The notes beneath the pieces were generated by a model. That model made no database searches, was not told the origin of the DNA, and saw only the letters and a program-made list of their open reading frames with translations. From assembly GCA_003599475.1 (NCBI GenBank), contig QZKK01000217.1, positions 1 to 34,379 of the forward strand: a stretch of 34,379 nucleotides of DNA, given 5' to 3'. Position numbers and translations under genes: made by a program. Every line of letters begins with the position of its first letter. Position 1 is the first letter of the stretch. Positions 8,635 through 31,420 of the stretch are shown piece by piece. The stretch comes from Desulfobacteraceae bacterium (lineage in GTDB: Bacteria > Desulfobacterota > Desulfobacteria > Desulfobacterales > SURF-15).

Positions 8635-8636
8635 AA

Positions 8637-10067: not shown

Positions 10068-10141
10068 AGGTTTCAGTGTTCAGTGTTCAGGTTTCAGCCG
10101 GTGATTTTTACGAAAAGTCTGAAACCCGAAACCTGAAACCT
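10068..10141. repeat. Inverted repeat of the TTCAG/CTGAA type
   Basis: AGGTTTCAG at 10068-10076 is perfectly complementary to CTGAAACCT at 10133-10141. Partial copies sit inside the arms (GTGTTCAGTGTTCAGG on the left, TCTGAAACCCGAAACC on the right), giving a long imperfect hairpin starting at the stop codon of the sigma-54 activator gene. It may act as a terminator or be a dispersed repeat. Confidence 0.7.
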
Positions 10142-10550: not shown

Positions 10551-10551
10551 T

Positions 10552-10568
10552 CCGGTATGCAAGTTGCT
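10552..10568 (+). promoter_or_regulatory. Candidate sigma-54 (-24/-12) promoter
   Basis: CGGTAT, five bases, then TTGCT: GG at 10554-10555 and GC at 10566-10567 are separated by exactly 10 bases, the invariant spacing for sigma-54. The -12 half matches the consensus TTGCW; the -24 half is partial. It lies about 50 bases ahead of the response regulator that opens the formate dehydrogenase cluster and downstream of a sigma-54 activator gene. The motif is seen directly; its use is inferred. Confidence 0.4.
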
Positions 10569-10619
10569 CTTAGGGATCTCAGAGGGCAGGGCAACGTCAA
10601 TTCAAAAGGAGGAACGCTC

Positions 10620-11297: not shown

Positions 11298-11309
11298 AAG
11301 GAGAGGCAA

Positions 11310-11831: not shown

Positions 11832-11869
11832 ACATCGAACATCGAACATCGAACTTCCAACATCGAATG
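11830..11869 (+). repeat. Short tandem direct repeat (GAACATC units)
   Basis: Three perfect 7-base units GAACATC are followed by degenerate copies (GAACTTC, CAACATC). The block begins at the last codons of the nuoE-like gene. An inverted partial copy, CATCCGATGTTT, occurs about 45 bases further on. This looks like a simple-sequence expansion; no CRISPR-like spacers are present. Confidence 0.7.
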
Positions 11870-11997
11870 AAAAGACAAAGATCCAATACCGTTTCCGGGG
11901 AATGGAATCGTTCATCCGATGTTTAGCCTTTGTGGCTTCGTGACTTAGTGCTCCATTTCATAATTTCGGTGACGTATGGATTGGACCTACTGAAAAA

Positions 11998-12085
11998 ACC
12001 ACAGAGCACAGAGACCACAGAGAAGAAAAATGTATGTAAAAACAGATTCTTCGTCTTCTCTCTGTGAACTCTGTGTCCTCTGTGG
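11998..12085. repeat. Long imperfect inverted repeat of the CACAGAG type (hairpin)
   Basis: The left arm begins ACCACAGAGCACAGAGACCA and continues to an AGAAGAA stretch. The right arm is its near complement, ending CTCTGTGTCCTCTGTGGT. The arms are about 30-38 bases with a few bulges and the loop about 20 bases. It separates the nuoE-like gene from the nuoF-like gene. Each arm is itself a repeat of a CACAGAG unit. A role in mRNA processing, termination or mobility is not determinable. Confidence 0.75.
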
Positions 12086-12155
12086 TGAATCTGATACGCC
12101 ACAATAATTACGCATGCATGTACTTAGTGGCCGAGCTATTACAAGGAGGGGCGTC

Positions 12156-14006: not shown

Positions 14007-14019
14007 AGGAGGAACTTCG

Positions 14020-16944
14020 GTGAAAACACTCCAATTGAACATCGACGGGAAACAGGTTTCAGCCCCTGAAGGAGCCACGGTTTTAGAAGCGGTCCGGGAG
14101 GCGGGAATCTATGTGCCCACCCTGTGCCACGATCCGGAATTGAAGCCGTTCGGCGCCTGCCGGTTGTGCATCGTCCAGATTGAAGGGCTGCGGGGGCTGC
14201 CGACATCCTGCACGACCCCGGCCAGGGACGGCATGGTGGTCCGGACCGAGACCGAAGAGATCCAGAGAATCCGGCGCGCGATCGTGGAGATGGCGATTGC
14301 GAATCACCCGTACGACTGCCTGGTTTGCAGCAAAAGCCGGGACTGCGAATTACTGGCCGTCGCCGGGTACGTGGGTGCGAGAAAAGAAGCCGTGGACCGC
14401 CTGCGGCGGGGGGCTGTAGATAAAGAGATCGATACATCCAACCCCGCATTCGATTTCGATCCGAATAAATGCATTCTCTGCGGCAAATGCGTGCGCACAT
14501 GTCAGGAACTTCAGGGGGTCGGAGCGATCGATTTTTCCTACCGGGGCTACCGGACCCGGATCAGTCCGTTCGGGGGGAAACCCCTGTTGGAATCGATTTG
14601 TCAAAGCTGCGGGGAGTGCGTGGAGCGGTGCCCGACTGGAGCGCTGGCACCTAAAACGGCCATTTTCGCGCAGAGAGAAACCCGCACCCTCTGCCCGTAC
14701 TGCGGGGTTGGCTGCGGCATATACATCGGGGTTCGCGGGCGAAAGGTCGTTTCTGTCCGGGGCGATAAGGAAAGCCCCGTCAACCAGGGCGCCCTTTGCG
14801 TCAAGGGACGCTATGGGCTCGATTTTGTCAATCATCCGGACCGGCTCACCCGCCCCTTGATACGGAAGGAGGATTCGCCGAAAGAAAGCGCATTGAAGGA
14901 TCCCCGCCAGGCATTTCGGGAAACCGGCTGGGATGAAGCGCTGGATTGGGTGACCCGCCGCCTTTCGCAGATCCATGCACAGGATGGAGCCGATGCGGTG
15001 GGAGTGCTCAGCTCGGCCAAGTGCACCAACGAAGACAACTACGTGATCCAGAAGTTTGCGCGCGCCGCCCTAGGCACAAACAACGTGGACCATTGCGCCA
15101 GGCTGTGCCATGCTTCGACAGTCACTGCAGCGCTCGCCGCCTTCGGAGACGGGGCCATGAGCAACTCCATTTCCGATGTCGACAAGGCGGACCTTCTTTT
15201 TGTCATTGGATCCAACACCACCGAATGCCACCCCGTCATCGGAAGGAAGATCAAACAGGCAGTTCGATCGAACGGCGCGAAGCTGATCGTTGCAGATCCT
15301 CGGGCAATCGAGCTGAGCGAGCTTGCATCCGTCCACCTCGATCACCGGCCCGGCACGGATGTGGCGCTGCTGAACGGGCTCATGCACGAAATTCTGGAAG
15401 CGGGTCTTTACGATCAGTCGTTTGTAAGGAGCCGTTGCGAAGACTTTGAGGGATTTCAAGCCTCGCTTGAGCCTTATACTCCGGTGCAGGTCGAGCGGAT
15501 CACCGGCGTTGCGGCGGAAAAGCTCCGGAAGGCCGCAGAGCTCTTCGGCAAAGCGGAGCGGGCAATTGTCCTTTATGGGATGGGAATCACCCAGCACACG
15601 ACCGGAACGGACAATGTCAAGGCGGTTGCAAACCTTTTGATGCTCACCGGGAACCTGGGCCGCGAAGGGACCGGGTTCTCCCCGCTTCGAGGGCAGAATA
15701 ACGTGCAGGGTGCCTGTGATCTGGGTGCGCTTCCCAATGTGTATCCGGGTTATCAGCGCGTCAACGATCCCGCTTCCAGGGCGAAATTCGAGAAAGCCTG
15801 GGGGTGCCGTTTAAATGAGAACCCGGGCCTGACGCTCACGGATATGTTTCGGCTTGCCCGAGAAGGGGAACTGAAAGCCATGTACGTGGTGGGGGAAAAT
15901 CCGATGCTCAGCGAGCCGGACCTCCGGCATGCCAAAGAGGCGATGGCCAGGCTCTCGCTTCTGGTCGTCCAGGATATTTTCCTGACCGAAACGGCCCAGC
16001 TTGCCGATATCGTTCTTCCCTCTGCCTGCTTTGCCGAAAAAGAAGGCACCTTTACCAATACCGAACGACGCATCCAGCGTGTGCGCAAGGTCCTTGAGCC
16101 GCCCGGCGAAGCCCGAGGGGACTGGGAAATCGTTGCAGAAATCGCCTCGCGCCTGGGTTATCCCATGCCCTATGCCGGCAGTTCCGAGATCATGGAAGAG
16201 ATTGCCGGGCTGACTCCCATTTACGGGGGAATTTCCTACGGACGCCTGGATGCAAACGGAGGTGTCCAGTGGCCCTGCTGGGATAAGGATCATCCGGGCA
16301 CCCCCATCCTGCACCAGGGGAAATTTACCCGCGGCAGGGGTAAATTCCATGTGGTTCAAGACAAACCACCCGCCGAGCTTCCCTCCGCCGATTTTCCGCT
16401 GCTTTTGACCACCGGAAGAGTCCTCCAGCATTGGCATACCGGGAGCATGAGCCATCGGTCCCGGGTTCTAGAGATCCTCTCACCGGAGAGCTGTGTGGAA
16501 ATATGCCCTTCCGATGCCGCCAGGCTCGGCATTCGACAAGGAGACGTGATCACCCTGAGCTCGCGCAGGGGAAAATTGCAGACCCGGGCCAAAGAGAACT
16601 GGCGAGTCTCTCCAGGCCTTGCTTTTATGGCATTTCACTGGGGGGACGCACCGGCCAATCTCTTGACCAACCCCGCAGTGGATCCACTGGCAAAAATCCC
16701 CGAGCTGAAGGTATCCTATGCCAGGATCATCTTGAGCGTGCTGGAAAAGGCCGCGGCGGACAATACGTTCTTTGCGGCTCTTGCAGACGATCCGACGAAG
16801 GCTCTCCGCTCCTTCGATCTCACTGCGGAGCAGCGTGCCGCACTGGCCTCCGGAGATATTTCAGCGATCGAAAAGTGGGTGGGCCCCCTGGAAGAACGCC
16901 TGAAGGTGTGGTTGAAAGCCCGGTTGGAGATGGAACACTGGTAG
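14020..16944 (+). CDS. NAD-linked formate dehydrogenase alpha subunit (Mo/W-bis-MGD, Cys type)
   Basis: 974 residues from the GTG at 14020, which follows AAGGAGG; the open frame extends upstream only through the previous gene. The N-terminus is NuoG-like: [2Fe-2S] ligands Cys36, 47, 50 and 64, the His-Cys3 site HPYDCLVCSKSRDC, and two [4Fe-4S] motifs. The catalytic part has the CPYCGVGCG cluster site and the active-site segment VDHCARLCHAST, where Cys363 (codon 15106-15108) occupies the position held by selenocysteine in many homologues. A molydopterin-dinucleotide-binding domain follows (LLTTGRVLQHWHTG). Residues 903-974 are an extra module shared with the upstream response regulator. It oxidises formate or reduces CO2 in the cytoplasm with the NuoE/F-like partners. 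Confidence 0.93.
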   Translation: MKTLQLNIDGKQVSAPEGATVLEAVREAGIYVPTLCHDPELKPFGACRLCIVQIEGLRGLPTSCTTPARDGMVVRTETEEIQRIRRAIVEMAIANHPYDCLVCSKSRDCELLAVAGYVGARKEAVDRLRRGAVDKEIDTSNPAFDFDPNKCILCGKCVRTCQELQGVGAIDFSYRGYRTRISPFGGKPLLESICQSCGECVERCPTGALAPKTAIFAQRETRTLCPYCGVGCGIYIGVRGRKVVSVRGDKESPVNQGALCVKGRYGLDFVNHPDRLTRPLIRKEDSPKESALKDPRQAFRETGWDEALDWVTRRLSQIHAQDGADAVGVLSSAKCTNEDNYVIQKFARAALGTNNVDHCARLCHASTVTAALAAFGDGAMSNSISDVDKADLLFVIGSNTTECHPVIGRKIKQAVRSNGAKLIVADPRAIELSELASVHLDHRPGTDVALLNGLMHEILEAGLYDQSFVRSRCEDFEGFQASLEPYTPVQVERITGVAAEKLRKAAELFGKAERAIVLYGMGITQHTTGTDNVKAVANLLMLTGNLGREGTGFSPLRGQNNVQGACDLGALPNVYPGYQRVNDPASRAKFEKAWGCRLNENPGLTLTDMFRLAREGELKAMYVVGENPMLSEPDLRHAKEAMARLSLLVVQDIFLTETAQLADIVLPSACFAEKEGTFTNTERRIQRVRKVLEPPGEARGDWEIVAEIASRLGYPMPYAGSSEIMEEIAGLTPIYGGISYGRLDANGGVQWPCWDKDHPGTPILHQGKFTRGRGKFHVVQDKPPAELPSADFPLLLTTGRVLQHWHTGSMSHRSRVLEILSPESCVEICPSDAARLGIRQGDVITLSSRRGKLQTRAKENWRVSPGLAFMAFHWGDAPANLLTNPAVDPLAKIPELKVSYARIILSVLEKAAADNTFFAALADDPTKALRSFDLTAEQRAALASGDISAIEKWVGPLEERLKVWLKARLEMEHW

Positions 16945-18583: not shown

Positions 18584-19254
18584 ATCCTCAATCCTTTCCG
18601 GCGTATGATCATGGAGACCGCTGCATTTGAGAGGTATTTTCCAAATGTGAACTCGGCCGATTATGATAAAAGAATCGAAGGTAGGCAAGATAATTTCCTG
18701 GGAGCTAAAAATTTTTCGCGCAGAGGCGCAAAGGCGCAGCCTTTGAATCCCCTGAACGCCTGCGATTTTTCGGTTGACAGCGATTCTGTTCATCGGTATA
18801 GCTTATTCATCAACATACAAAGGTACAAAGGGATGAAACAAATTCGATTTATTTTTACACCATTAATATGAGGAATCGTTAGAGGACCCGGGCGGTTCTC
18901 CGGACGGTATCTCCCCCCATCCATGCCCTGACCTTCAGGCCTTCTTTGCGTCAGCCGCATGGAAGTGCGGTGAGACGTGAAGGAGGTTTCTCTCCGAGAA
19001 AATCCTTTACCGCCGGTTTTTGAATCGATTTTAGAACCTCTGGATTGTCGTTTTCATTTCCGGGGTTCCATCGCCGCGGAGCGGCTTTGTGCGGTCTGAC
19101 ACGCTTCCAAATCGATATGCCACCATCGAAGGAGGAAAAGCATAGGCGACCCCTACAGAAGCCTATTGTTTGATCTTCAGCCATGACAGCAGGAAGCAGG
19201 TTTGGAAACTTAGCGTTTTCAGGAATTTACCGGATCATCCGTCAACGGAACGAC
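18584..19254. other. Intergenic region without a supported gene
   Basis: About 670 bases between divergent genes. At about 18715-18742 it holds a short reiterated GCGCAGAGGCGCAAAGGCGC unit of the kind seen in other gaps of this window. Small open frames exist on both strands but none has a ribosome site with recognisable protein sequence. Promoters for both flanking genes should be here. Confidence 0.5.
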
Positions 19255-20469
19255 ATGAAACCGGAAAACATCAGGCGATCTCCGCGTCTACGATTGGATA
19301 CCCCGCTTGAAAGCAAACTGAATCTGATTGCAGAAAATTGCACCCACTGCAATCTATGCGCGAAGCAGTGCGAATTCATTCGCAGGTACGGCAACCCCGG
19401 GAAGATCGCGGCGATTTTCGTACCGGGTGATCGGAAGTTCCAAAGGCTTCCCTTCGAATGCAGCCTCTGCGGGCTTTGCGGGAGGGTGTGCCCGGCAGGC
19501 CTGAACCCCTCGGACATGTTTCTCGAGATGCGCAGGGATTATGTATGCCGATGCGGCGAGAGCTTTCCGGAGCATAGGAGTCTCCTCGATTATGAGCGGC
19601 GCGGCACCTCCAGACGATATTCTTACTATGCGATGCCCAAAGGGTGCGACACGGTTTTTTTCCCCGGCTGCACCCTGACGGGAACCCGCCCGCGGCAGAC
19701 GCTGCGGCTTTTCGATTACCTGAAAGGGCAAATTCCCCATTTGGGCATCGTTCTGGATTGTTGCTGCAAACCGTCGCATGACCTTGGGTGCGACGCGCAT
19801 TTCAAATCGCTTTTTCACGAGATGAAGGATTATCTCTTAAAAAATGGAGTGAAAAAAGTTCTGGCAGCATGTCCGAACTGCTACCAAGTACTCAAGCAGT
19901 ACGGCAACCCCATTGGCGTTGAATCGGTATACGAAGTGATGAGCAGAAACGGCCTTCCCGCCAAAAGAGACATGAAGGGCTCGGTCTGCATTCACGACCC
20001 TTGTGCAGTCCGGGTCGAGTCGGGCATTCATGAGGCCGTCCGCCGCCTGGTGAAAGGTACGGGGCTCAGCATGGAGGAAATGACCCATTCCAGAGAAAAA
20101 ACGATTTGTTGCGGGGAAGGCGGCGGCGCCTGTTCCGTGAATCCGGAATTAGCCGGAAAGTGGTCTTCGCTGAGAGCGGAAGAGGCCGGCGGCCGGAGAA
20201 TCATCACCTACTGTGCCGGGTGCTACAGCAGCTTAAGCAGAGCAAATCCTACCAGCCATATCATCGACTTGATCTTTGAGCCGGAGGCTGCTCTCTCGGA
20301 CAAGGTGAAAGTGTCCCGTTCACCGTTTACCTATCTCAATCGTCTCCGTCTGAAAAAGCGGTTGAAACAAACCGTAGACGCCGCCGTCCGACGGGAACGG
20401 GAGCCCACGGCAGCCCCGAAGAGGCTCCATCGGATCATGATGAGAAAAGGAACAAAGGAGCCGCTGTAA
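19255..20469 (+). CDS. HdrD/GlcF-like (Fe-S)-binding protein with two CCG domains
   Basis: 404 residues. Residues 25-90 hold two ferredoxin [4Fe-4S] motifs (CTHCNLCAKQC and CSLCGLCGRVCP). Two CCG-type cysteine-rich regions follow: FFPGCTL with LDCCCKPSHDLG and ACPNCYQV, then HDPCAVR with TICCGEGGGACS and YCAGCY. This arrangement is that of HdrD, GlcF and related reductase subunits which bind a non-cubane or [4Fe-4S] cluster and act on thiols, disulfides or quinones. No membrane partner is adjacent, so it is probably a soluble electron-transfer subunit. The start at 19255 is chosen for the point where homology begins; an upstream ATG at 19183 is open. Confidence 0.83.
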   Translation: MKPENIRRSPRLRLDTPLESKLNLIAENCTHCNLCAKQCEFIRRYGNPGKIAAIFVPGDRKFQRLPFECSLCGLCGRVCPAGLNPSDMFLEMRRDYVCRCGESFPEHRSLLDYERRGTSRRYSYYAMPKGCDTVFFPGCTLTGTRPRQTLRLFDYLKGQIPHLGIVLDCCCKPSHDLGCDAHFKSLFHEMKDYLLKNGVKKVLAACPNCYQVLKQYGNPIGVESVYEVMSRNGLPAKRDMKGSVCIHDPCAVRVESGIHEAVRRLVKGTGLSMEEMTHSREKTICCGEGGGACSVNPELAGKWSSLRAEEAGGRRIITYCAGCYSSLSRANPTSHIIDLIFEPEAALSDKVKVSRSPFTYLNRLRLKKRLKQTVDAAVRREREPTAAPKRLHRIMMRKGTKEPL

Positions 20470-20589
20470 TGCTTTCGGGGGAAAAGTATTTAGGATGAAA
20501 GGAGGTCAAGGTAATTTTTCGTAAAGGGGCAGCATAGGACTCACGTGAAGCATTTCATATCAAAAATAAGGTTTGGTTGGAGATTAAAA

Positions 20590-21018
20590 ATGACCAAGAA
20601 GATATTTTTCAGCTTTTTCGCGTTTCTGTCCGTCGCCGTTTGCGGGTGGGCGGCTTCTTCCGGCGGATACAACTATATTTCAGCCGAAGATCTCCAAAAA
20701 AGGATCGACGGGAAAGACCCCATGATCCTTGTCGATATCTGCCCGGTGGAGCAGTTTGCCAAAGGACACATCCCGGGCTCGGTCGAAACGAACGCCTACC
20801 CTATTCAAACGGAAGAAGAGAAGGCGCGTCTGGCAAAGGCATTGCCGAAGATCGAGTCCTCATCCGATGGTGTCGTCATCGTCTGCCCGAAGGGAGGGGG
20901 AGGGGCGAAAAAGACCTACGATTTCTACAAGTCCAAGGGAGTCGATGAAAAGAGGTTGCTCATCCTGGAGAAGGGAATGGGCGGCTGGCCTTATAAAACA
21001 GAGAGCAAAAGCAAATGA
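20590..21018 (+). CDS. Exported single-domain rhodanese
   Basis: 142 residues. A signal peptide is evident (KK, then a hydrophobic stretch FFSFFAFLSVAVCGWAA with a likely cut near residue 21). The rhodanese domain follows: LVDICPVEQFAKGHIPGSV is the substrate-pocket region and Cys99 in VIVCPKGGGGA is the persulfide-bearing residue with a glycine-rich loop. GGAG precedes the ATG. It would transfer sulfane sulfur, or selenium in principle, in the periplasm. It is about 90 bases upstream of the double-cubane reductase gene and may be in the same transcription unit; a functional link is inferred only. Confidence 0.88.
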   Translation: MTKKIFFSFFAFLSVAVCGWAASSGGYNYISAEDLQKRIDGKDPMILVDICPVEQFAKGHIPGSVETNAYPIQTEEEKARLAKALPKIESSSDGVVIVCPKGGGGAKKTYDFYKSKGVDEKRLLILEKGMGGWPYKTESKSK

Positions 21019-21111: not shown

Positions 21112-22389
21112 ATGAGCGAAGGTTATAGAGACATGTGGGAAAAGCTGGGGCTCGATCTCCAGGCGCACGATGCGCTGCTTTCCGTGTTGGGCAATGCTTA
21201 TCGGGACATCTTCCTGGCGCAGAAGGGTCGGCCCGACGCGATGGGCTATTTCGATTTCGTCATGGGCGAGGTCCACGGGCTGCGGATCAAGGAGCTCATC
21301 GAAGAAAAGGAGGCCGGCCGCAAGATCATCGGGACATATTGTGTATTCGTTCCGGAGGAGATCGCACTTGCCGGCAACGCCACGATGGTCGGGCTTTGCG
21401 CAGGCGCGGACTTCGCCGTGGAGGAGGTGGAGAAGTTGCTCCCGCGCAACACCTGCGCGCTGATCAAATCCACCTTCGGCTTCAAGCTGGGCAAGGTCTG
21501 CCCTTACCTGGAGGTCTCCGATATGATCGTCGGGGAAAATACCTGCGACGGCAAGAAGAAGGCCTATGAGACCCTCGGCTGTCTCTGCGAAAATGTTTAT
21601 GTCATGGACATGCCCCAGACGAAGTCGGCCGAGGGGCGGGCGCTTTTGAAGGCCGAATACGACCGCTTCAAGACGGCGGTGGAGAATCTGACCGGGGTCA
21701 AAATCGATGCGGGCCGGCTCAAGGAGGCCATCCGGACCGTAAACGAAAAGCGAAAGGCCATCCACCGGCTGTCGGCTCTCCGAAAGGCGGATCCGGCACC
21801 GATTTCCGGGCTCGATGCGCTTCTCGCCAACCAGGTCTTTTTCTACGACAACCCGAAACGTTTCACCGATTCGGTCAACAAGATCTGCGACGAGCTGGAG
21901 AGCCGCATCGAAAGGAAGCAAGGGGTTTTCCCCAAGGGCGCCCCGCGCCTTCTGATCTCCGGATGCCCCATGGCCGTTCCCAACTGGAAGCTTCCCTGGA
22001 TCGTCGAGACCTCCGGTGCGGTGATTGTCGGGGAGGAATCCTGCATCGGCGAGCGCGGGTCCAGGAACCTTACCGATGGTTCCGGTTCAAGCGTAGAGGA
22101 GCTCATGGATGCCGTGACGGATCGCTATTTCAAGATCGACTGCGCAATTTTTACGCCCAATCCGGACCGGTTGGACCACATCGTGGAGATGGCCAAGGCC
22201 TACCAAGCCGACGGCGTGATTCACTACGGCCTGCAGTTCTGCCAGCCCTATTTAATGGAATCCATTCCGGTCGAGAAAGCCCTGGAGGAGAGAAATATTC
22301 CATGTCTTCGGATCGAAACCGATTACAGCATGGAGGATGTGGGTCAGTTGAAGACCCGGATCGAGGCTTTTATCGAGCAGCTTCGATAG
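21112..22389 (+). CDS. Double-cubane-cluster reductase / 2-hydroxyacyl-CoA dehydratase family (HgdB-like), copy 1
   Basis: 425 residues of the HgdB/BcrB/BcrC superfamily. The segments IIGTYCVFVPEEIALAGNA, LLPRNTCALIKS, GKVCPYLEVSDMIVGENTCDGKKK, ISGCPMAVPNWKL and GEESCIGERG resemble the double-cubane-cluster proteins rather than classical 2-hydroxyglutaryl-CoA dehydratase or benzoyl-CoA reductase. In that group a [8Fe-9S] double cubane is reduced at very low potential by an ATP-driven activase. The activase gene follows 19 bases downstream, supporting an active system. The ATG follows AAAGGAGG. Substrate unknown; family relatives reduce small molecules in vitro. A CoA-ester substrate cannot be excluded. 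Confidence 0.85.
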   Translation: MSEGYRDMWEKLGLDLQAHDALLSVLGNAYRDIFLAQKGRPDAMGYFDFVMGEVHGLRIKELIEEKEAGRKIIGTYCVFVPEEIALAGNATMVGLCAGADFAVEEVEKLLPRNTCALIKSTFGFKLGKVCPYLEVSDMIVGENTCDGKKKAYETLGCLCENVYVMDMPQTKSAEGRALLKAEYDRFKTAVENLTGVKIDAGRLKEAIRTVNEKRKAIHRLSALRKADPAPISGLDALLANQVFFYDNPKRFTDSVNKICDELESRIERKQGVFPKGAPRLLISGCPMAVPNWKLPWIVETSGAVIVGEESCIGERGSRNLTDGSGSSVEELMDAVTDRYFKIDCAIFTPNPDRLDHIVEMAKAYQADGVIHYGLQFCQPYLMESIPVEKALEERNIPCLRIETDYSMEDVGQLKTRIEAFIEQLR

Positions 22390-22408
22390 CTGCGTTCGGG
22401 AGTTTGCG

Positions 22409-23182
22409 GTGAGTATGCGCTTTGCGGGAATAGACATCGGCTCGCGCACGATTGAACTCGTGGTGGTGGATGAAGCGGGGGGTATCGTTTGCAGCCTTCA
22501 GGCAGACACCGGATTCGATCCCATGAAAGAGGCCAAAAAACTGATCCATGGAGTCGCCTATGATCGCATCATGGCTACCGGCTATGGCCGCAGCCTGTTT
22601 GAGATCTCCTTTGAAGCGCCGACGGTAACGGAAATCAAAGCCCATGCCACGGGGGCAAGAGCTTTTTTCCCCGATGCCCGGGCCGTGCTGGATATCGGTG
22701 GACAGGACAGCAAGGCGATCTCTCTTTTTGAAAACGGCAGGGTGAAAAAGTTCGAGATGAACGATCGCTGTGCCGCCGGAACCGGAAAATTCCTGGAGAT
22801 CATGGCAAAGACCCTGGGTTTTGACATCGAATACTTCGGCCGGGAAGCGCTCCGAACCGATAAAGAGCTCAATATTTCAAGCATGTGCACCGTTTTTGCC
22901 GAATCCGAGGTCACGTCTTTGATTGCCAAAGGAAAAAACAGGCGGGAAATCGCCCGGGGGCTGCACGCCAGCGTGATCCGCCGGGCAGCCGGCATGATCA
23001 ACCGGGTGTCACCGGAGGGGGATATCGTCTTTACCGGCGGGGTGGCCAAAAATCCATGCATGCGCGCTCTTCTTGAAGAAAAACTGGGCCGGCGCATTCT
23101 GATCCCGGAAGATCCGCAGTCGGTCGGAGCCCTGGGGGCGGCACTGTTGTGCAAGGGGGTGCCTCAATGCGAAATGGAATGA
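22409..23182 (+). CDS. ATP-dependent activase of the BadF/BadG/HgdC family
   Basis: 257 residues with the actin-like ATPase fold: FAGIDIGSRTIELVV (first phosphate loop), LDIGGQDSKAI, and the adenosine-binding FTGGVAKN. Cys121 (NDRCAAGTGKFLE) and Cys160 (SSMCTVFAESE) supply the four thiolates of a [4Fe-4S] cluster shared across the dimer. It hydrolyses ATP to push one electron at a time into the double-cubane reductase. It lies between two such reductase genes, so one activase could serve both. GTG 22409 is used; an ATG two codons later is an alternative. Full length. Confidence 0.92.
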   Translation: MSMRFAGIDIGSRTIELVVVDEAGGIVCSLQADTGFDPMKEAKKLIHGVAYDRIMATGYGRSLFEISFEAPTVTEIKAHATGARAFFPDARAVLDIGGQDSKAISLFENGRVKKFEMNDRCAAGTGKFLEIMAKTLGFDIEYFGREALRTDKELNISSMCTVFAESEVTSLIAKGKNRREIARGLHASVIRRAAGMINRVSPEGDIVFTGGVAKNPCMRALLEEKLGRRILIPEDPQSVGALGAALLCKGVPQCEME

Positions 23183-23208
23183 TCAATTTATCATTATAAG
23201 GATTCCAA

Positions 23209-24348
23209 ATGAACCGAACCGTCATGAACGCGCTGCAGCAGGCGACCGAAGAAAACCTGGAGGATCTCGCAAAGGCCAAGACCGAGGGGCGGGCCGTGAT
23301 CGGTTTTTATTGCCTCTATTCTCCTACAGAAATCGCGGTGGCGGCCGACGCCATACCCCTGCCGCTTTGCGGCACACGCAACGACCCGATCTCTGCGGCC
23401 GAGGAAATCCTGCCGCGCAACCTCTGCCCCCTGATCAAGAGCAGCTTTGGCTTCGCGGCAACGGATACATGCCCTTTTTTTCGATGCTCCGATATCATCG
23501 TCGGAGACACCACCTGTGACGGCAAAAAGAAAATGTTCGAGCTTCTCTCCCGGTACAAAACCACACATGTGCTGCAATTGCCTCAGAGCCAGGACCCGGC
23601 AACATCCCTGCCGCTCTGGCATTCGGAACTGGAACGCTTCAAAAAGATCATCGAGGCACATACCGGTACGGAGATCACCGGCAAGCGGCTTCGGGCCGCC
23701 ATCCGGCTAATGAACCGCGAACGCGCAGCCCGCAGAGCCCTCATGGATGTGAACAAAGCTGAACCTGCACCGCTCATGGGCTCGCAACTGATTGAGATCA
23801 TGTTCAAAGTGGGGTTCCTTGCGAACAAGGAAAAAGGGATTTCCCTGATTGAATCGGTTGTGCTCGAGGCCCAGAAAGGAGCATTCCGGTCGGAAGACTC
23901 AGGGATCGCGAGACGCAGACGGATTTTGCTTTCCGGTGTGCCGGTCGGGCTGGGCAGCGACAAGGTGGTAAAAATCGTTGAGCAGAGCGGCGCCGACGTC
24001 GTGGCTTTTGAAAGCTGCTCAGGTTACAAGCAGGCGTTTTCGGTAAACGAGGATGAAGATCCCATGGAAGCGCTGGCAAAGCAGTACCTTGCCACACCTT
24101 GCTCGGTGATGAGCCCCAACCCCGGTCGCTATGGGCTCCTGAAAGAGATGGTTCGCGAATTTTCCGCAGACGGAGTCATCGATCTCACCTGGCAGGCCTG
24201 TCATACGTATAACATAGAGGCATACCGCACAAACGAATTTATACAGGAAACCTTCGGGTTTCCGACGTTGCATCTGGAAACCGACTATGCGGAAAGTGAC
24301 ACCGAGCAACTCCGGGTGCGCATCGAGGCCTATCTGGAGATGCTCTAG
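23209..24348 (+). CDS. Double-cubane-cluster reductase family protein, copy 2
   Basis: 379 residues, paralogous to the gene before the activase but shorter by about 40 N-terminal residues. Conserved blocks: GFYCLYSPTEIAVAADA, LPRNLCPLIKSSFGF, DTCPFFRCSDIIVGDTTCDGKKK, FESCSGYKQAF, TPCSVMSPNPGR and WQACHTYNIEA. It resembles the YjiM/double-cubane group most closely. The GCP tripeptide of copy 1 is GVP here, a difference that may reflect substrate pocket changes. AAGGA precedes the ATG. The two copies may form a heterodimer as HgdA/HgdB do, or two separate homodimers with different substrates; the sequence alone does not decide. Confidence 0.83.
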   Translation: MNRTVMNALQQATEENLEDLAKAKTEGRAVIGFYCLYSPTEIAVAADAIPLPLCGTRNDPISAAEEILPRNLCPLIKSSFGFAATDTCPFFRCSDIIVGDTTCDGKKKMFELLSRYKTTHVLQLPQSQDPATSLPLWHSELERFKKIIEAHTGTEITGKRLRAAIRLMNRERAARRALMDVNKAEPAPLMGSQLIEIMFKVGFLANKEKGISLIESVVLEAQKGAFRSEDSGIARRRRILLSGVPVGLGSDKVVKIVEQSGADVVAFESCSGYKQAFSVNEDEDPMEALAKQYLATPCSVMSPNPGRYGLLKEMVREFSADGVIDLTWQACHTYNIEAYRTNEFIQETFGFPTLHLETDYAESDTEQLRVRIEAYLEML

Positions 24349-24383
24349 ACCGAGAACCCACAACTGTAATTGAAGGAGAAAAG

Positions 24384-25382
24384 ATGAAAGCAGCCATTCG
24401 CTTCGTTCAGATCACCGCTCTAGGAATCCTGTTGAGCACCCCTTCTTTCGGCGCAGGTCCGAACCTGACGCCTTCAGGCAAAGGCATCACCATCTGGTTT
24501 GATACCGGCGGTCCGGCAGGGGGACCGTACAATACCATCGTCCAGAACGGTGCCGCGCAGGCTGCAGCCGATATGGGCTGTGATGTCAAATGTCTGTACT
24601 CCGATTGGAACCCGGAAAAGATGATCGAAAACTTCAAGACGGCTCTGGCCGCCCGGCCGGATGGTATCGTCGTCATGGGGCATCCCGGAGACGATGCCTA
24701 TGCTCCTTTCATAAAGGAAGCCGTCGATGCCGGTATCCTGGTGACTTGTGTGGATACGGATCTTCCCAAGACTCGGGAAAAGTATAAGTCAAAAGGATTC
24801 GGTTCCATCGGAACGGATCCGGAAGTGATGGGTGCCACCCTGGCAAAGGAGGCACTGATCCGATCCGGAGTCAAAAAAGGAGAACGGGCTTTCATCTGGG
24901 GGTTGAAACGTCTGGAAGAACGGGGACGCCGGGCCCGGGCCATGATTCGTACCCTTGAGAAAGCCGGATTGGTCGTGGATTACATCGAGATCAGCCCCGA
25001 GGTCGACAAGGACACGGCCATGGGCACCCCCATCATCACCGGTTATCTGGCCGGCCATCCGGACTGCAAAATGATGCTGATCGATCATGGAGCACTGACA
25101 TCCCAGATGGAAAATTTCCTGAAAGCGGCCGGGATCAAACCGGATGAGATCTTCGTGGGCGGTTTTTCACTGTCTCCGGCCACAGCAACGGCCATCGAAA
25201 ATGGATACGTCGACCTGGTTTCTGAAATGCAGCCCTATCTGCTGGGGTACCTATCGGTGGCGCAAATTGTTTTGACAAAAAAATATGGATTCACAGGGCT
25301 TACGATCGATACCGGCGGCGGACTCGTCAACAAGGACAATATCGGCCTGATCGCCCCGCTGGCCAAAAAAGGCATTCGGTAG
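24384..25382 (+). CDS. Periplasmic substrate-binding protein (RbsB/Peripla_BP_4 type)
   Basis: 332 residues. A signal peptide is clear (KAAIRFVQITALGILLS, cut near SFGA). The two-lobed binding fold of ribose/xylose-type binding proteins follows: ITIWFDTGGPAGGPYNTI, the NPEKMIENFKTALAARPDGIV block, GHPGDDAY and a C-terminal GGFSLSPATATAIENGYVD. It is first of a complete importer set with the ATPase 3 bases and the permease about 800 bases downstream. The family is usually annotated for sugars but also carries autoinducers and other small polar molecules. Its place directly after the double-cubane genes suggests that it may deliver their substrate. Confidence 0.9.
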   Translation: MKAAIRFVQITALGILLSTPSFGAGPNLTPSGKGITIWFDTGGPAGGPYNTIVQNGAAQAAADMGCDVKCLYSDWNPEKMIENFKTALAARPDGIVVMGHPGDDAYAPFIKEAVDAGILVTCVDTDLPKTREKYKSKGFGSIGTDPEVMGATLAKEALIRSGVKKGERAFIWGLKRLEERGRRARAMIRTLEKAGLVVDYIEISPEVDKDTAMGTPIITGYLAGHPDCKMMLIDHGALTSQMENFLKAAGIKPDEIFVGGFSLSPATATAIENGYVDLVSEMQPYLLGYLSVAQIVLTKKYGFTGLTIDTGGGLVNKDNIGLIAPLAKKGIR

Positions 25383-25385
25383 TCC

Positions 25386-26174
25386 ATGGAAAGCAGCCGT
25401 ATGAATGGCCTATCTCCCCTGCTGAGTTTGCGGGAAATCTCCAAATCGTTCAACGGAGTGACGGCGCTTAAATCGGTCAGTCTGGATCTTTTCCCCGGAG
25501 AGATCCTCGGTTTGGTGGGAGACAACGGCGCGGGAAAATCGACGCTGGTCAAAGTCGTGTCCGGCGTCCATGCGCCGGACACCGGCCACCTTACCGTCGG
25601 CGGCCAGCGGGTGGACTTTAAAAGCTACGATGCGCGCCGTGCCCGCCGATTGGGCATCGAAACCGTGTTTCAAGATCGTTCCCTGGGCGAGAAGCAACCC
25701 CTCTGGCGTAACATCTTCGTGGGGCGGCCGATCACAAACCGGCTGGGCTTTATCCGCGTCCGGGAGCAGAAAAGGGTCACCTTGGAGATACTCAATCGCC
25801 ATGTCGGTCTGCGAGGGGCGGGGATCAGCGCCGATGCACCCGTCCGCCATCTGTCCGGCGGCGAGCGCCAGGGCATGGTCATCGGGCGGGCCATGTATTT
25901 CGATGCCAGGATCATCATCCTGGACGAACCCACCACCGCCCTTTCGCTAAAAGAGGTGGAGACGGTGTTGTCGTTTTTCGATGCAATTGCGGGCAGGGAT
26001 AAAGCGTGCATTTATATTTCCCACAATTTGAGTCATGTATATCGCTTATCCCACCGCATTGTCCTGATGGACAGAGGGAAAGTAGCCGGTGAATATCACA
26101 AAAACGATTTGTCGCTCGATGAGCTCGGCGCCAACCTCATGCGGCTTCATTCAAGCGTTGATGGAGGACGATAA
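25386..26174 (+). CDS. ABC importer ATPase (single nucleotide-binding domain)
   Basis: 262 residues with Walker A GDNGAGKST, Q-loop at VFQDRSLGEKQ, signature LSGGERQG, Walker B RIIILDEPT and the H-loop in IYISHNLSHVY. All catalytic residues are intact. Ribose-type systems usually use an ATPase with two fused domains of about 500 residues; here a single domain would have to work as a homodimer, as in the FrcA/XylG-short class. ATG 25386 or 25401 are both possible. The stop overlaps the permease ATG by one base (TAATG). Confidence 0.93.
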   Translation: MESSRMNGLSPLLSLREISKSFNGVTALKSVSLDLFPGEILGLVGDNGAGKSTLVKVVSGVHAPDTGHLTVGGQRVDFKSYDARRARRLGIETVFQDRSLGEKQPLWRNIFVGRPITNRLGFIRVREQKRVTLEILNRHVGLRGAGISADAPVRHLSGGERQGMVIGRAMYFDARIIILDEPTTALSLKEVETVLSFFDAIAGRDKACIYISHNLSHVYRLSHRIVLMDRGKVAGEYHKNDLSLDELGANLMRLHSSVDGGR

Positions 26175-27136
26175 TGTCGCCTTTGGTCGTATTGCGGCGG
26201 TTCAGGCTCCAGGCGGGCATCTTCGGCGTCTTGATTTGCCTGTTGGGGGTATTTACTATCTTGAGTCCCGTGACATTTCTGTCCGCGCGCATCTACATCT
26301 CCTTTATGTCGACGATTCCGTTCGTCGCGATTTTGGCCCTGGGATTGACTTTCCTTGTGATTGCCGGAGAATTGGATCTGTCTTTCCCTTCGATTATGGC
26401 CGTCGCCGGCCTGACTTTCGCCGACATTTTTCTTGGCACCCATAACCCGTTTCTGGGCATGATCGCAGCCCTTTGTGTCGGCGGGCTTGCCGGATGGATC
26501 AATGGGCTTTTGGTGGTAAAGGTGGGCATACCGTCGATAATCGCCACAATCGGAACACAGTTTTTCTGGCGGGGATTATCGGCCCTGCTGGCTGCGGGAC
26601 TTGCCCGAAATATCGTTCAGGTGCGGGATACCGTCCTTCACCACGCCTTTGTGGGGCGTATCGGAGGTCTTGTCCCGGTCCAGAGCCTGTGGTGTCTTGG
26701 TATCGCCGGTGGACTGGCGCTGTTGTTGAATCGGCATATGTTCGGCGATCAAGTGCTGTTTATCGGTGACGACATCCGTACTGCGCGCCTGATGGGGATC
26801 AACACCGATAGGGTCCGGATGCTTCTTTTTGTTTTCATGGGTATATTGAGCGCCTTGGTCTCGGTAATGGTCTGCATGGAAATGGCAAACTGGTGGCCCA
26901 CGCAGGGGGAGGGCTACCTGCTGCTGGTTTTTGCCGCGATTTTCATCGGCGGCACCTCCGTCTTCGGGGGAGAGGGGACGGTCTTCGGAACACTCATCGG
27001 TGGCATTATCATCGGCATTATCGAAGCCGGGATCATCAGCGCGGGGCTTTCCGGGTTTTGGACGCGTCTGGTGCATGGGTTCATTATTGTGGCTTCGGTG
27101 TCGGTCTATGCCACGGTATTCAAAACAGGAAGATAG
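26174..27136 (+). CDS. ABC importer permease (RbsC/BPD_transp_2 type)
   Basis: 320 residues, largely hydrophobic, with eight to ten membrane segments (for example FGVLICLLGVFTILSPVTFL and PFVAILALGLTFLVIAG). The conserved GELDLSFPSIMAVAG box after the second or third helix and the cytoplasmic loop around DDIRTARLMGINTDRVR (ATPase contact) match the RbsC family; GGTSVFGGEGTVFGTLIGG is the usual late motif. Translation is coupled to the ATPase gene. One permease would act as a homodimer. It is the last gene of the reductase/importer run; an 85-base gap follows. Confidence 0.92.
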   Translation: MSPLVVLRRFRLQAGIFGVLICLLGVFTILSPVTFLSARIYISFMSTIPFVAILALGLTFLVIAGELDLSFPSIMAVAGLTFADIFLGTHNPFLGMIAALCVGGLAGWINGLLVVKVGIPSIIATIGTQFFWRGLSALLAAGLARNIVQVRDTVLHHAFVGRIGGLVPVQSLWCLGIAGGLALLLNRHMFGDQVLFIGDDIRTARLMGINTDRVRMLLFVFMGILSALVSVMVCMEMANWWPTQGEGYLLLVFAAIFIGGTSVFGGEGTVFGTLIGGIIIGIIEAGIISAGLSGFWTRLVHGFIIVASVSVYATVFKTGR

Positions 27137-27221: not shown

Positions 27222-27731
27222 ATGAAACATGTGCACATCAGCGCGAAGGTCGAGCGGCGTCTCAAAGATCTCGAAAAATCCGGAAAAGAGGGCTATGGGC
27301 TGGCACGAAGGACACACATCATTCTCGATAGTCTCGCAGCCGGAGAAATTCGGCACCCGGTGAACGCAGTAGGCAGTCAGACAAAGTATGGTGAGAAACG
27401 GATCAAGAAGTGCCGAAAATACGACCTCGGATGCGGCTACCGCCTGATTACGCTGCAGCGGGGCTTGAAGATTTTTATCCCCTTTTTAGGGACGCATGAC
27501 GAATGTGAGCGGTGGCTGGAAAAAAACAGCCGGCTGAAAGAGATCGCGGCCGGGAAGGGGAAAGTATTTCGGATCCCTGACGATTCACAGCCGCAGCAAA
27601 GCCCGGCAAACACCGATTCCGCGGATATCGAAGAGGATTCCGACGACGAGCCGACGTTGAAATTAAGCGATCGGCAGTTGCGGCGTGTATTTTGCGGACT
27701 GGTCGAAGCCGGCAGGAAGCGCGCTTCATGA
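27222..27731 (+). CDS. RelE/HigB-like protein with an acidic C-terminal tail
   Basis: 169 residues. The first 100 resemble RelE-superfamily toxins: a helical start (KVERRLKDLEKSGKEGYGLA), then strands with KYGEKRIKKCRKYDLGCGYRL and IFIPFLGTHDECERWLE, the last a usual terminal pattern of such proteins. The rest is a linker with acidic runs (DIEEDSDDE) and a short helix. No antitoxin gene is adjacent on either side, so it may be an orphan or a non-toxic relative. The assignment is by fold pattern only. It has weak ribosome-site evidence. Confidence 0.5.
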   Translation: MKHVHISAKVERRLKDLEKSGKEGYGLARRTHIILDSLAAGEIRHPVNAVGSQTKYGEKRIKKCRKYDLGCGYRLITLQRGLKIFIPFLGTHDECERWLEKNSRLKEIAAGKGKVFRIPDDSQPQQSPANTDSADIEEDSDDEPTLKLSDRQLRRVFCGLVEAGRKRAS

Positions 27732-27827
27732 GATTTTAAATTTCAGGAGAATGCTTCGGCGATTTGGAAAAGAATCGGGTATGCTTTGAAATTTGATCTT
27801 GGATTCGACAAAATGTTAAGCAACGAA

Positions 27828-28058
27828 ATGAAGTTCATTTTTGTATGTCCGACCCGAAACAGGGTGTTCGAGAGCGCGGATTTCAAAGTCCTCGAAAACG
27901 GGGGCGTAATAACCGATGCGGCCGGAAACAAAACCCTGGATGCCCGGGTGGCATTGACCGAACCGTGCCCTTTCTGCGGCAGCAGGCATGTATACCCTGC
28001 CGGTGAATTGGCTTGCCCGTTTGGCATATCCGGTTTCAAAGGGAGAGGAGTGACGACG
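27828..28058 (+). CDS. Small zinc-ribbon-like hypothetical protein, in frame with selD
   Basis: Starting at ATG 27828 (another ATG lies at 27813) the frame reads MKFIFVCPTRNRVFESADF, then a strand-rich middle, then CPFCGSRHVY and ELACPFG. Three Cys-containing boxes suggest one zinc ribbon. I know similar small proteins as stand-alone hypothetical genes in anaerobic Desulfobacterota, ending soon after CPFG. Here no stop codon follows: the frame runs without interruption into the selD ATG at 28059 and on to its selenocysteine UGA. It may be a separate protein that lost its stop, a fused N-terminal domain of SelD, or a frame open by chance. The ribosome site is weak. Confidence 0.5.
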
Positions 28059-29108
28059 ATGGGAGATAAAAAGAAAATACGCCTGACGGAGTGGGTCGCA
28101 GGTGCCGGCTGAGCCTCCAAGATGTCTCCAGGGGACCTGGACAAGGCACTGTGCGGAATGGCTTTCCCGACCGATAAAAACGTGATCGTCGGCTTGGACC
28201 GGGCGGACGACGCCGGTGTTTACAAAATTTCAGAGGAGGTGGCGCTGGTCCAGACGGTGGATTTCTTTACACCCATCGTGGACGATCCTTACTGGTTCGG
28301 GCAGATTGCCGCCGCCAACGCGCTGAGCGATATCTACGCCATGGGCGGAATCCCCAAGACCGCCATGAATCTCGTGGCCTTTCCGGTCAAGCAGATGGAT
28401 CTGTCGGTTCTGCGCCGGATCATACAGGGGGGGATCGACAAAATCGCCGAAGCGGAAGCGGTTCTTATCGGCGGTCACAGCGTGGAGGACAAGGAGCTCA
28501 AGTATGGTTTGTCCGTAACCGGGATCGTGCACCCGGCCCGGGTGCTCACCAAGAAAAACCTGCACCCGGCGGACCGGCTGGTTCTGACCAAACCGCTCGG
28601 CACAGGTATCGTAAATACCGCCATCAAGGCGGGGATGGCTTCCGAAGATCTCACGGGCAGGGTGACTCGGTTGATGGCGACGCTCAATCGGGACGCCGCC
28701 CGAATCATGTCGCGCTTTGATGTCCATGCCTGCACCGATGTCACGGGCTTCGGCCTGCTCGGGCATCTTGCCGAGATGGTATCCGGATCGCACATGAGCG
28801 TGCGGGTTTTTTCGGACCGGGTTCCGGTGATTGCGGAAGCTCTGGAATTTGCCGCCATGGGGCTCATCCCGGCCGGTGCCTATAAAAACAGGGAGTTCAG
28901 GGAATCGATGGTCGATTTTGAGAAAGCTGTAGAGCGCACCCGCAGGGATGCATTGTTCGATCCCCAGACCTCGGGGGGGTTGCTGATCGGCGTAAAGGGT
29001 GGTCAAGCCGCTGAGCTCGTTTCGGCCCTGAAGAAGGCGGGAATCTGCGATGCCGCAGAGATCGGGATTGTACTGAACGGTCCGGAAGAAAAAATATTTG
29101 TCGTATGA
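28059..29108 (+). CDS. selD: Selenide, water dikinase (selenophosphate synthetase), selenocysteine-containing
   Basis: 349 residues when the in-frame UGA at 28110-28112 is read as selenocysteine (residue 18). ATG 28059 follows AGGAG at 8 bases, and the product starts IRLTEWVAGAG-U-ASKMSPGD, which aligns with the E. coli start where the same position is catalytic Cys17 and the next Lys is essential. Downstream are VDFFTPIVDDPYWFGQIAAA, the ATP-binding ALSDIYAMGG and TDVTGFGLLGH, all normal for SelD. A stem-loop begins 11 bases after the UGA as in bacterial SECIS elements. It makes selenophosphate from selenide and ATP for selenocysteine tRNA. yedF follows 44 bases later. The rest of the Sec machinery is not in the window. 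Confidence 0.93.
28124..28142 (+). promoter_or_regulatory. SECIS-like hairpin for UGA recoding in selD
   Basis: GT-(CT)-CCAGG, loop GGA, CCTGG-AC: a 7-bp stem with a 2-base bulge, or a 6-bp perfect stem at 28127-28141. It starts 11 bases after the UGA, the spacing of the E. coli fdhF element, with a G-containing loop and a bulged pyrimidine in the same area. SelB would bind it. Function inferred from form and place. Confidence 0.65.
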
Positions 29109-29152: not shown

Positions 29153-29749
29153 ATGAAGGAAATCGATGCCCGCGGGCTGGCCTGCCCAGCCCCCGTGCTT
29201 CAGACCAAGGCCGCTTTGCAGGAGGAAAAACTCCGGGGCGTTAAAGTGGTGGTCGACAACGCGGCCTCGCAGCAGAACGTGCAGCGGTTCTTGGAATCGC
29301 AAGGGTTTCAGACGGCGCTTGAACGGGATGGGGCCGACTACCTGGTCGTAGGAACGTGCGGTTCAGGACCGATGGAGAAACCTCGATTATCTGCAGCGGG
29401 GGAAGGCGATGAAAAAAAGATCATGGTCGTATGCGCCACCGACCGGATGGGGTTCGGAGACGATGTACTGGGCTTGAAGCTGATGGTCAATTTTCTGCGC
29501 ACGCTCAAAGAGATGGGCGGCGAGCTGTGGCGCCTGGTATTTGTGAACAACGGGGTAAAACTGACCATCGACGGTTCGGAGGTGCTCGACGACCTCAAGG
29601 CATACGAAAGAGGAGGCTTAAAGATTATGGTCTGCGGGACCTGCCTGAATCATTTCGACCTTCTGGAGAGAAAGCAGGTGGGCGAGACCACCAACATGCT
29701 GGACATTGTCACCGCCATGCAACTGGCCGACAAGGTCATCAGTGTATGA
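29153..29749 (+). CDS. yedF: Selenium metabolism protein YedF (TusA-DsrE fusion)
   Basis: 198 residues. The N-terminal TusA-like domain has the persulfide site LACPAPVLQTK with Cys11. From about residue 85 a DsrE-like domain follows (KIMVVCATDRMGFGDDVLG, ELWRLVFVNNGVKL, VCGTCLNHFDLLERKQVGETTNM). This two-domain form is the selenium-associated YedF that co-occurs with selD across bacteria. A strong AAAGGAG precedes the ATG, and the gene lies directly after selD, so co-expression is likely. It probably handles sulfane sulfur or selenium donors for SelD; the exact reaction is not settled for the family. Confidence 0.92.
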   Translation: MKEIDARGLACPAPVLQTKAALQEEKLRGVKVVVDNAASQQNVQRFLESQGFQTALERDGADYLVVGTCGSGPMEKPRLSAAGEGDEKKIMVVCATDRMGFGDDVLGLKLMVNFLRTLKEMGGELWRLVFVNNGVKLTIDGSEVLDDLKAYERGGLKIMVCGTCLNHFDLLERKQVGETTNMLDIVTAMQLADKVISV

Positions 29750-29882: not shown

Positions 29883-30108
29883 GATCTGGGATTGATCCTT
29901 CGATAGTTTCCCCATTTTTCTCGCCGAGATTGGATTCTTTTTTTAGATCCCAATTCGCCGATTGTTTTCTCTTCCTTCTTCGGTGCCGGAGCAGGATCGG
30001 AAAGCATACCTCTGGATGAAAAGCTCTCGTTGACATTTTCGGCTCCGCTGCTGCGGAAGACCCGCGACGCTCTCGAGGGCACACGGGAAGGGAGTAAAGG
30101 AGTTGCCG

Positions 30109-31420
30109 ATGGATGATGCTGCAATAATTATCGGAAAAGGAAAAAAGAAGATCTTTTTTGAAAAAGTCAGGGGAATGCTTCCGGATGGCGGCAATTTAAA
30201 CCTCTGCCTGACCTGTGGAGCGTGCGCTTCCGGGTGTCCGGCCACGGGTCTGGAAGGAATGGACCCAAGGAAATTTCTGCGCATGGCCGCAATGGGTCTC
30301 GACGATGAAATCACGGAGCATCCGTGGGTGTGGATGTGCAGCATGTGCACGCGCTGCACCTACGCCTGTCCGATGGGGATCAATATCGCGGGGCTGGTTT
30401 TCGAAGCCCGAAAGCTGTGGCCCAGGGAAAAACGGCCGAAGGGAATCCTCGGATCCTGTGATATGGCCCTGCGGAACGCCAGTTGCAGCGCGATGGGCAC
30501 CCCGGAAGAAGATTTCCGGTTTGTCGTGGAGGATGTGCTGGCGGAGGTACGGGAAACGCAACCCGGATGGGAGAGCCTCCAGGCGCCCATCGATAAAAAA
30601 GGGGCGCATTTTTTCCTAAGCCAGAATTCCCGTGAACCGGTGACGGAGCCTGATGAAATGGTTCCGCTGTGGAAGATTCTTCACCTGGCCGGCGCAGACT
30701 GGACGTACAGCTGCACGGGATGGGGGGGGGGAAAACTACTGCATGTTCCTTGCAGACGACGAAAGCTGGAAAAAGATTACCACTATTACGCTGAAAGCCG
30801 CGGAGGATCTAGGTTGCAGGGTTTATCTGAATACGGAATGCGGTCATTCCACCTACTCGGTCTGGATGGGGCAGAAGCGGCATAAGATCGAAACCGATCT
30901 GGAAATCGCGCCCATGGTCCAATACTATGCAAAATGGATCCGTGAGGGGAAACTCAAAGTGAGCCCTCTTTGGAACAAAGACCTTAAAGTCAAGTTCACG
31001 GTCCAGGATCCCTGCAACCAAGTGCGGAAAGGCTTCGGGGATGCCCTTGCAGACGACCTGCGCTTTATCACGACTGCCTGCGTGGGCGAGGAAAACTTCA
31101 TCGATACCTACCCGAACAAATCCAACAATTACTGCTGCGGCGGCGGAGGCGGCTATCTTCAATCCGGATATAAAGACGCCCGCCTGGCCTACGGGCGGCT
31201 GAAGCATGAACAGATTGCAGCCACTGGCGCAAGCTATGTGATTACCCCCTGCCACAACTGCCATGCCCAGATCGAAGAGCTGGGACAGCACTACGCAGAC
31301 GGCACATACCGGGCCGTCCACCTTTGGACGATCATCGCGCTTTCACTTGGAGTTCTGGCGGAAAACGAGCGCGCATACCTGGGACCGGATCTGATCGATG
31401 TGAATCTTCCCGGAGCTTGA
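30109..31420 (+). CDS. HdrC-HdrB fusion protein, frame broken at a G10 tract
   Basis: If one G of the run at 30722-30731 is removed the gene reads through as 436 residues, the normal length for this fused family. The HdrC part has Cys33, 36, 39, 43 and Cys77, 80, 83, 87 for two [4Fe-4S] clusters. The HdrB part has CCG motifs around NTECGHS, DPCNQVRKGFG, NNYCCGGGGG and CHNCH. As given, the first frame ends at 30885 and the second runs from before the G tract to 31420; the join would read TGW-GG-ENYC, while homologues usually show two residues between W and ENYC. AAGGAG precedes ATG 30109. The HdrA-like gene follows directly. Probable role: electron transfer to a disulfide or related acceptor. 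Confidence 0.85.

Follow-up and report, generated by a model that had tools for sequence, protein, structure and literature searches.

A 34,379-nucleotide contig of a Desulfobacteraceae bacterium (assembly GCA_003599475.1, contig QZKK01000217.1; the whole stretch is called the window) carries a run of genes in which two double-cubane-type reductases (DCCP1 and DCCP2, of the DCCP family), an ATP-dependent activase and an ATP-binding cassette (ABC) importer lie beside genes of selenium metabolism (Table 1). Six genes, all on the forward strand, occupy 21112-27136, exactly where a first-pass annotation of the sequence had placed them, in the order DCCP1, activase, DCCP2, binding protein, ATPase, and permease. 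The successive intergenic gaps are 19, 26, 35, 3, and -1 bp, so that the importer genes do follow the reductases at short gaps (the last three), as the annotation held. Its limits for the run are too narrow, with neighbors on the same strand on both sides: an iron-sulfur protein and a rhodanese-domain protein on the 5' side, and ORF169, selD, and yedF on the 3' side. The whole stretch from the iron-sulfur protein to yedF is a candidate for a single transcript; promoter and terminator scans give the same counts as shuffled sequences.

Table 1 Genes of the run in the window, in order
Feature	Position	Strand	Family match and remarks
Iron-sulfur CCG-domain protein, first gene of the run	19183-20469	+	Fer4_17, CCG domains; 75 bp to rhodanese
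Rhodanese-domain protein	20545-21018	+	PF00581, 44.3 bits; 93 bp to DCCP1
DCCP1, double-cubane-type reductase, long form (like solved 6eno), 425 aa	21112-22389	+	NF040772
Activase, ATP-dependent reductase of DCCPs, 257 aa	22409-23182	+	TIGR00241, PF01869
DCCP2, double-cubane-type reductase, short form, 379 aa	23209-24348	+	NF040772
Periplasmic sugar-type binding protein, CUT2-like, 332 aa	24384-25382	+	Peripla_BP_4
ABC ATPase, single domain, 262 aa	25386-26174	+	PF00005
Permease, BPD_transp_2, 320 aa	26174-27136	+	PF02653, 110 bits
ORF169, YafQ/RelE-like predicted fold	27222-27731	+	85 bp past permease
selD, selenophosphate synthase, in-frame TGA	28059-29108	+	TIGR00476; start uncertain
yedF, selenium-metabolism sulfurtransferase-like	29153-29749	+	TIGR03527; 44 bp past selD

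DCCP1 and DCCP2 score 403.7 and 355.4 bits with HGD-D and pass the double-cubane equivalog NF040772 with 476.7 and 475.1 bits (cut-off 350). The activase between them scores 176.3 bits with BcrAD_BadFG and passes TIGR00241 with 227.5 bits (cut-off 125.4). The annotated arrangement, two double-cubane-type reductases around one activase, is thereby confirmed. Residues 6-424 of DCCP1 match the solved DCCP chains 6eno and 7yyl with an E value of ~1e-140, and DCCP2 matches them with an E value of 1.4e-67. All 22 DCCP rows of the alignment, both window proteins included, have cysteine at the same eight columns, two of which (DCCP1 residues C96 and C130) are kept in none of five non-DCCP relatives. 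Six of the eight cysteines we take to be cluster ligands. Because of the equivalog scores and the conserved cysteine columns, both DCCP1 and DCCP2 should carry a double cubane.

Neither protein scores as a 2-hydroxyacyl-CoA dehydratase of the HadBC type (HadC, 105.6 and 93.3 bits for DCCP1 and DCCP2, cut-off 700) or a benzoyl-CoA reductase (BzdN, 86 and 67.6 bits, cut-off 453.8). These enzymes share the superfamily and the activase logic with the DCCPs, but the window proteins score far below their cut-offs; BzdN, too, holds a double cubane, according to a passage in PMC11971306. Among the closest characterized systems is the DCCP and DCCP reductase of Carboxydothermus hydrogenoformans (6eno, 7yyl), with which the window has the family, the cysteine set, and the single activase in common. 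In the window, by contrast, there are two paralogous reductases with a sugar-type importer linked to them.

The binding protein, ATPase, and permease score 98.9, 98.5, and 110 bits with Peripla_BP_4, ABC_tran, and BPD_transp_2, respectively. The closest solved folds and profile matches of the binding protein are sugar-binding proteins, and its combination with a BPD_transp_2 permease is that of a CUT2 sugar importer. The binding-protein fold and the ATPase and permease families are those of RbsABC and AraFGH. The ATPase of a CUT2 importer typically has two fused ABC domains, whereas that of the window is a single ABC_tran domain of 262 residues. Among the CUT2 equivalogs listed, no named cut-off is reached (rhizopine substrate-binding protein, 92.1 vs 420; RbsB, 19.9 vs 337; AraG, 167.4 vs 689; GguB, 138 vs 450), and the ATPase is below every equivalog cut-off among the 25 listed of its 188 matches. 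The suggestion of the annotation that linked import points to a small molecule from outside is reasonable in view of the reductases, the activase, and the linked importer.

Genomes were scanned with an alignment of the binding protein. The importer loci examined are the best 80 of at least 510 importer relatives, not an unbiased census, and their list does not strictly follow identity (L014, at 51%, is within the first 16; L019, at 52%, is outside). Of the first 16 loci, 10 have a DCCP no more than 10 kb from the importer (L001-L008, L010, and L011); near the importer in the remaining 64 loci, some on short contigs, tblastn finds none. The binding proteins have a common signature. In 8 of the 10 loci the DCCP and the importer form a same-strand run; in the other two the DCCP is on the opposite strand, adjacent to the importer in L003 and 5 kb off in L007. 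The gene order of the window, DCCP1-activase-DCCP2-importer, recurs in L002; other loci have other orders: activase-DCCP2-importer (L001 and L008), activase-importer-DCCP2-DCCP1 (L004 and L005), importer-DCCP2 (L006), and DCCP-activase-selenium/sulfur (Se/S) carrier-importer-GH4 glycosidase (L010 and L011), the order of the Aeromonas run. The linkage recurs in differing gene orders, and there is therefore good evidence, from gene neighborhoods, that the importer and the DCCPs share a function. The neighborhood comparison that the annotation had set in advance, in which an importer not conserved beside these reductases was to count against it, leaves the linkage standing. The closest named binding proteins and loci come from Desulfobacterota, e.g., Desulfococcus and Desulfobacterales. 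Plasmids yield two importer-relative records, and no importer relative is found in viral contigs.

The short forms linked to the importer occupy three branches of the DCCP tree (supports 100/99, 100/100, and 86/92), where they are interspersed with forms that lie near selenium genes and lack this importer. An in-frame TGA in DCCP1 of L003 was considered as a selenocysteine codon and rejected; it lies in a frame-shifted part and not at a conserved cysteine. The second DCCP with an in-frame TGA (G012:C43) is a piece of a broken DCCP2. Distant versions of the importer (L014, L017, L018, and L019; 49-52% identity) adjoin UroD/MtaA-like proteins, two of which, both from L017, were tested and are methyltransferase-like, below cut-off.

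The 3' part of the run places this system in a selenium setting that the first-pass annotation missed, as it did the glycosidase link described below, its picture of reductases and importer being otherwise sound. SelD scores 360.2 bits with TIGR00476 (cut-off 125) over 28122-29108, and YedF scores 207.3 bits with TIGR03527 (cut-off 110). An in-frame TGA of selD at 28110-28112 is read as selenocysteine, and SelD genes with one in-frame TGA are common in related genomes. The best fold 3' of this TGA that resembles a selenocysteine insertion sequence is no better than those of shuffled sequences (z -0.76). The open frame of selD reaches back to 27786, 54 bp past ORF169 and 649 bp downstream of the permease end; the homologous start is the ATG at 28059, 327 bp past ORF169 and 922 bp from the permease end. 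The 91 codons between (27786-28058) contain a CPxCG-type motif and have no Pfam match, being either an N-terminal extension of SelD or the upstream part of a frame with a late start. Relatives of ORF169 occur in L002 (12754-13242), L003 (5703-6200), and L130 (9373-9852); in four Desulfobacterota loci, the window included, this family adjoins SelD or YedE or shares the locus with YedE.

At the 5' end of the run, the best NCBIfam match of the iron-sulfur protein is to the C-terminal half of NF045663, 'diclust_near_Sec' (230.3 bits, cut-off 530), and the protein is a possible electron carrier. Its homologue in L127 (48% identity) adjoins a rhodanese and a DCCP2-activase pair, in which DCCP2 is broken into two frames. 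The N-terminus of the window rhodanese is signal-like by eye.

The genomes of 25 loci were used for genome-wide placement of families, most families being placed in the 16 genomes behind L001-L016, where the positions of curated families were compared with those of DCCPs over cut-off. Genes for the Se/S carrier (PF11823) lie within 10 kb of a DCCP in 7 of 10 cases, against 0.09 expected under the assumption of independent genomes, which overstates the odds; within 15 kb the count is 8 of 10. This proximity is far from chance. YedE is near a DCCP in two of five cases within 10 kb and three of five within 15 kb, and YedF in 2 of 10. SelD over cut-off is present in 11 of 12 genomes with a DCCP and in 6 of 13 without (25 genomes; p 0.02, kinship ignored). 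Of 14 control genomes, E. coli and M. jannaschii are the two in which the DCCP model matches, and the PF11823 model matches in these same two. An earlier marker count is not relied on, as its markers were partly drawn from DCCP loci (Sec-lyase-like, Se/S carrier, LysR, YedE, and YedF); it was positive for 7 of 16 DCCP regions, for none of 17 HGD-D regions without DCCP (several of them short), and, through weak generic matches, for 2 of 20 regions picked by hand and so not truly random.

Individual loci illustrate the pairing. In L125 (Photobacterium marinum) the order is cysteine-desulfurase-type enzyme, DCCP, activase, Se/S carrier, and YedF, and in L127 (Desulfobacula) it is LysR, DCCP, another ABC importer, YedE, SirA, and Se/S carrier, the LysR passing the selenium-metabolism model. 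In the genome of L003, one Se/S carrier lies ~13 kb from a DCCP. In E. coli K-12, ytiA of the yjiM-yjiL-ytiA triad (L182, 8669-8926, labeled 'uncharacterized') is a PF11823 member (48.9 bits, cut-off 25). As in Aeromonas, reductase (HGD-D), activase, and Se/S carrier are consecutive there; unlike in the window, there is one reductase and no such importer in the 20 kb examined.

Such loci would also suit DCCPs that act in the redox chemistry of inorganic or protein-bound selenium, with a co-transcribed importer that serves an unrelated compound, and DCCPs do occur near selenium genes free of the importer in Photobacterium marinum, Kistimonas, Desulfobacula C43, and E. coli. We consider this quite improbable, given that DCCPs are repeatedly linked, in varied gene orders, to this same importer, and that those of L126 and L127 lie beside other types of ABC importer, as if DCCPs often followed uptake. 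The gene beside the DCCP in L126 (2511-3401) encodes a family-3 (amino-acid) binding protein, with a look-alike by eye in L003 (6250-7203); the ATPase of the ABC system in L127 (8196-12549) is nearest to SaoA and to the nitrate/taurine type, below cut-offs.

A connection of DCCPs with selenium is already in print. Passages in PMC10418091 tie DCCP provisionally to selenium metabolism and draw it in clusters, and PMC5322559 (Lin et al. 2015) counts a CoA-enzyme activase and subunits of 2-hydroxyglutaryl-CoA dehydratase as associated with YedE, YedF, LysR_Se, and DUF3343. In the type I mlp clusters of the former and the Slackia cluster of the latter, DCCP/HGD-D and activase stand among SelD, YedF, selenocysteine lyase, and DUF3343; the sections seen of both papers name methyl-selenide methyltransferases and YedE, but no sugar-type ABC importer or GH4. 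In an E. coli ygfI mutant, yjiM and yjiL fall by 6.9 and 5.3 log2 units (-6.9 and -5.3) alongside formate hydrogenlyase genes, as given in an excerpt of PMC9068703, and in Calderihabitans a LysR-like gene lies within a DCCP/DCCP-reductase unit that is lowered under CO, as given in one of PMC7306483. Both data sets fit a selenium role and prove nothing. The portions seen of literature naming both yjiM and yjiL mention no selenium phenotype. In a search short on subscription papers, no report was found of this importer with DCCPs, nor of a joint occurrence of DCCP, Se/S carrier, importer, and GH4. 'Undescribed pathway', the term of the first-pass annotation, is too strong for the reductases, whose family and putative selenium role were already known.

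We tentatively read the run as a unit for the acquisition of organoselenium, to which we give somewhat less than even weight. Linkage supports uptake and the pairing of the reductases with selenium; the ligand, the bond cut, the order of the steps, and the flow of selenium we infer. The binding protein, ATPase, and permease would import a small sugar-like compound containing selenium or, less likely, sulfur. With ATP as its energy source, the activase would drive electrons of low potential into the double-cubane clusters, and DCCP1 and DCCP2 would reductively cleave carbon-selenium bonds. The selenide set free would pass to YedF, and in relatives also to the Se/S-carrier protein, and from there to SelD, which would make selenophosphate for selenoproteins. 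The two DCCPs could act on two carbon-selenium bonds, and in Aeromonas, with one DCCP in the run, the NAD-dependent GH4 glycosidase could make the other cut. The scheme in its most specific form is doubtful: a dedicated high-affinity ABC importer for a selenosugar-like compound, coupled to nitrogenase-like, ATP-driven DCCPs that would cut carbon-selenium bonds for selenophosphate, with two cuts by two DCCPs and a sugar-side cut by GH4 in Aeromonas and its kin.

Six of the first 16 loci (L009-L012, L015, and L016) have a GH4 glycosidase after the importer, as does one Photobacterium plasmid record. The glycosidases of the six loci belong to the alpha-galactosidase subfamily, that of L015 being under the subfamily cut-off. 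In Photobacterium, Kistimonas, and Arcobacter, importer and GH4 occur without an adjacent DCCP. The run may belong to plain carbohydrate or polyol catabolism, a glycoside or sugar serving as carbon source and the DCCPs reducing or deoxygenating it or its aglycone, with the selenium genes nearby for some other reason. The sugar-binding relatives of the binding protein, the GH4 link, and the distant importer relatives beside other genes, such as the MtaA/UroD-like ones, speak for this reading. We nevertheless regard it as unlikely, as no sugar kinase, no isomerase, and no aldolase is recognized by family searches in the window run, the Se/S carrier lies within the Aeromonas run, and the DCCP-selenium linkage is far above expectation.

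Organoselenium acquisition also competes with an organosulfur route, in which a thiosugar or thioglycoside would be imported, its carbon-sulfur bonds broken by the DCCPs or GH4, and the sulfur moved by the Se/S carrier, the selenium genes being near through shared chemistry. PF11823 is named Se/S carrier, GH4 enzymes cleave S-glycosides (stated in a passage of PMC10628242), and a 5-methylthioribose-binding protein has the same fold as the window binding protein. The curated selenium families YedE, YedF, and LysR_Sec near DCCPs and selD downstream of the run argue for selenium instead, and the Desulfobacterota, to which the host of the window is close, include many sulfate reducers that live amid sulfide and would hardly need such salvage. 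The organosulfur route seems to us rather improbable.

Several observations weigh against organoselenium acquisition. In the window, tblastn with the YedE of L002 gives no match, and a six-sequence profile of the Se/S carrier finds nothing among open reading frames of at least 40 residues (best E value 29); among the DCCP-importer loci examined, this carrier is found only in L002, L010, and L011. The 16 genomes contain 19 SelD genes over cut-off, none of them near a DCCP; the window is the only case of such proximity. A. finlandensis has the run and no SelD over cut-off, as the organosulfur route would allow; this may be a gap, since SelB is over cut-off there, as in 15 of the 16 genomes. The importer of L013 (Photobacterium aquimaris) has neither DCCP nor GH4 adjacent. 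The GH4-importer loci without an adjacent DCCP (L009, L012, L015, and L016) have no SelD, YedE, YedF, or Se/S carrier over cut-off within 10 kb; the importer alone therefore does not point to selenium, and its putative link to selenium rests on the DCCP-linked members. GH4 enzymes of the alpha-galactosidase subfamily may simply serve sugar catabolism. Finally, the element handled may be sulfur, as PF11823 is named Se/S.

Elsewhere in the window, an HdrC/HdrB-like iron-sulfur gene (30103-31420) falls into two frames that overlap, with the split at ten consecutive G (from 30722); either a sequencing slip or a broken gene would account for this. Its relatives in L002 (439 aa) and L003 (431 aa) are in a single frame, and in L002, L003, and L007 such relatives are close to the importer/DCCP loci. 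A sensor kinase and a sigma-54 regulator are encoded at 7396-10067 and a NuoF-like protein at 12114-14006. The latter is followed, within 7396-16944, by a molybdopterin oxidoreductase without in-frame TGA that is formate-dehydrogenase-like by eye.

The physiological role of double-cubane reductases is called unclear in a passage of PMC11971306, and a 2022 review (PMC9312934) states, in the section seen, that a selenium transport system of high affinity has yet to be identified. Organoselenium acquisition, if true, would give a natural role to an orphan metalloenzyme family that ranges from E. coli to sulfate reducers, and one gene run would answer both questions. As E. coli K-12 has the yjiM-yjiL-ytiA triad, the question can be tested in an ordinary laboratory strain.

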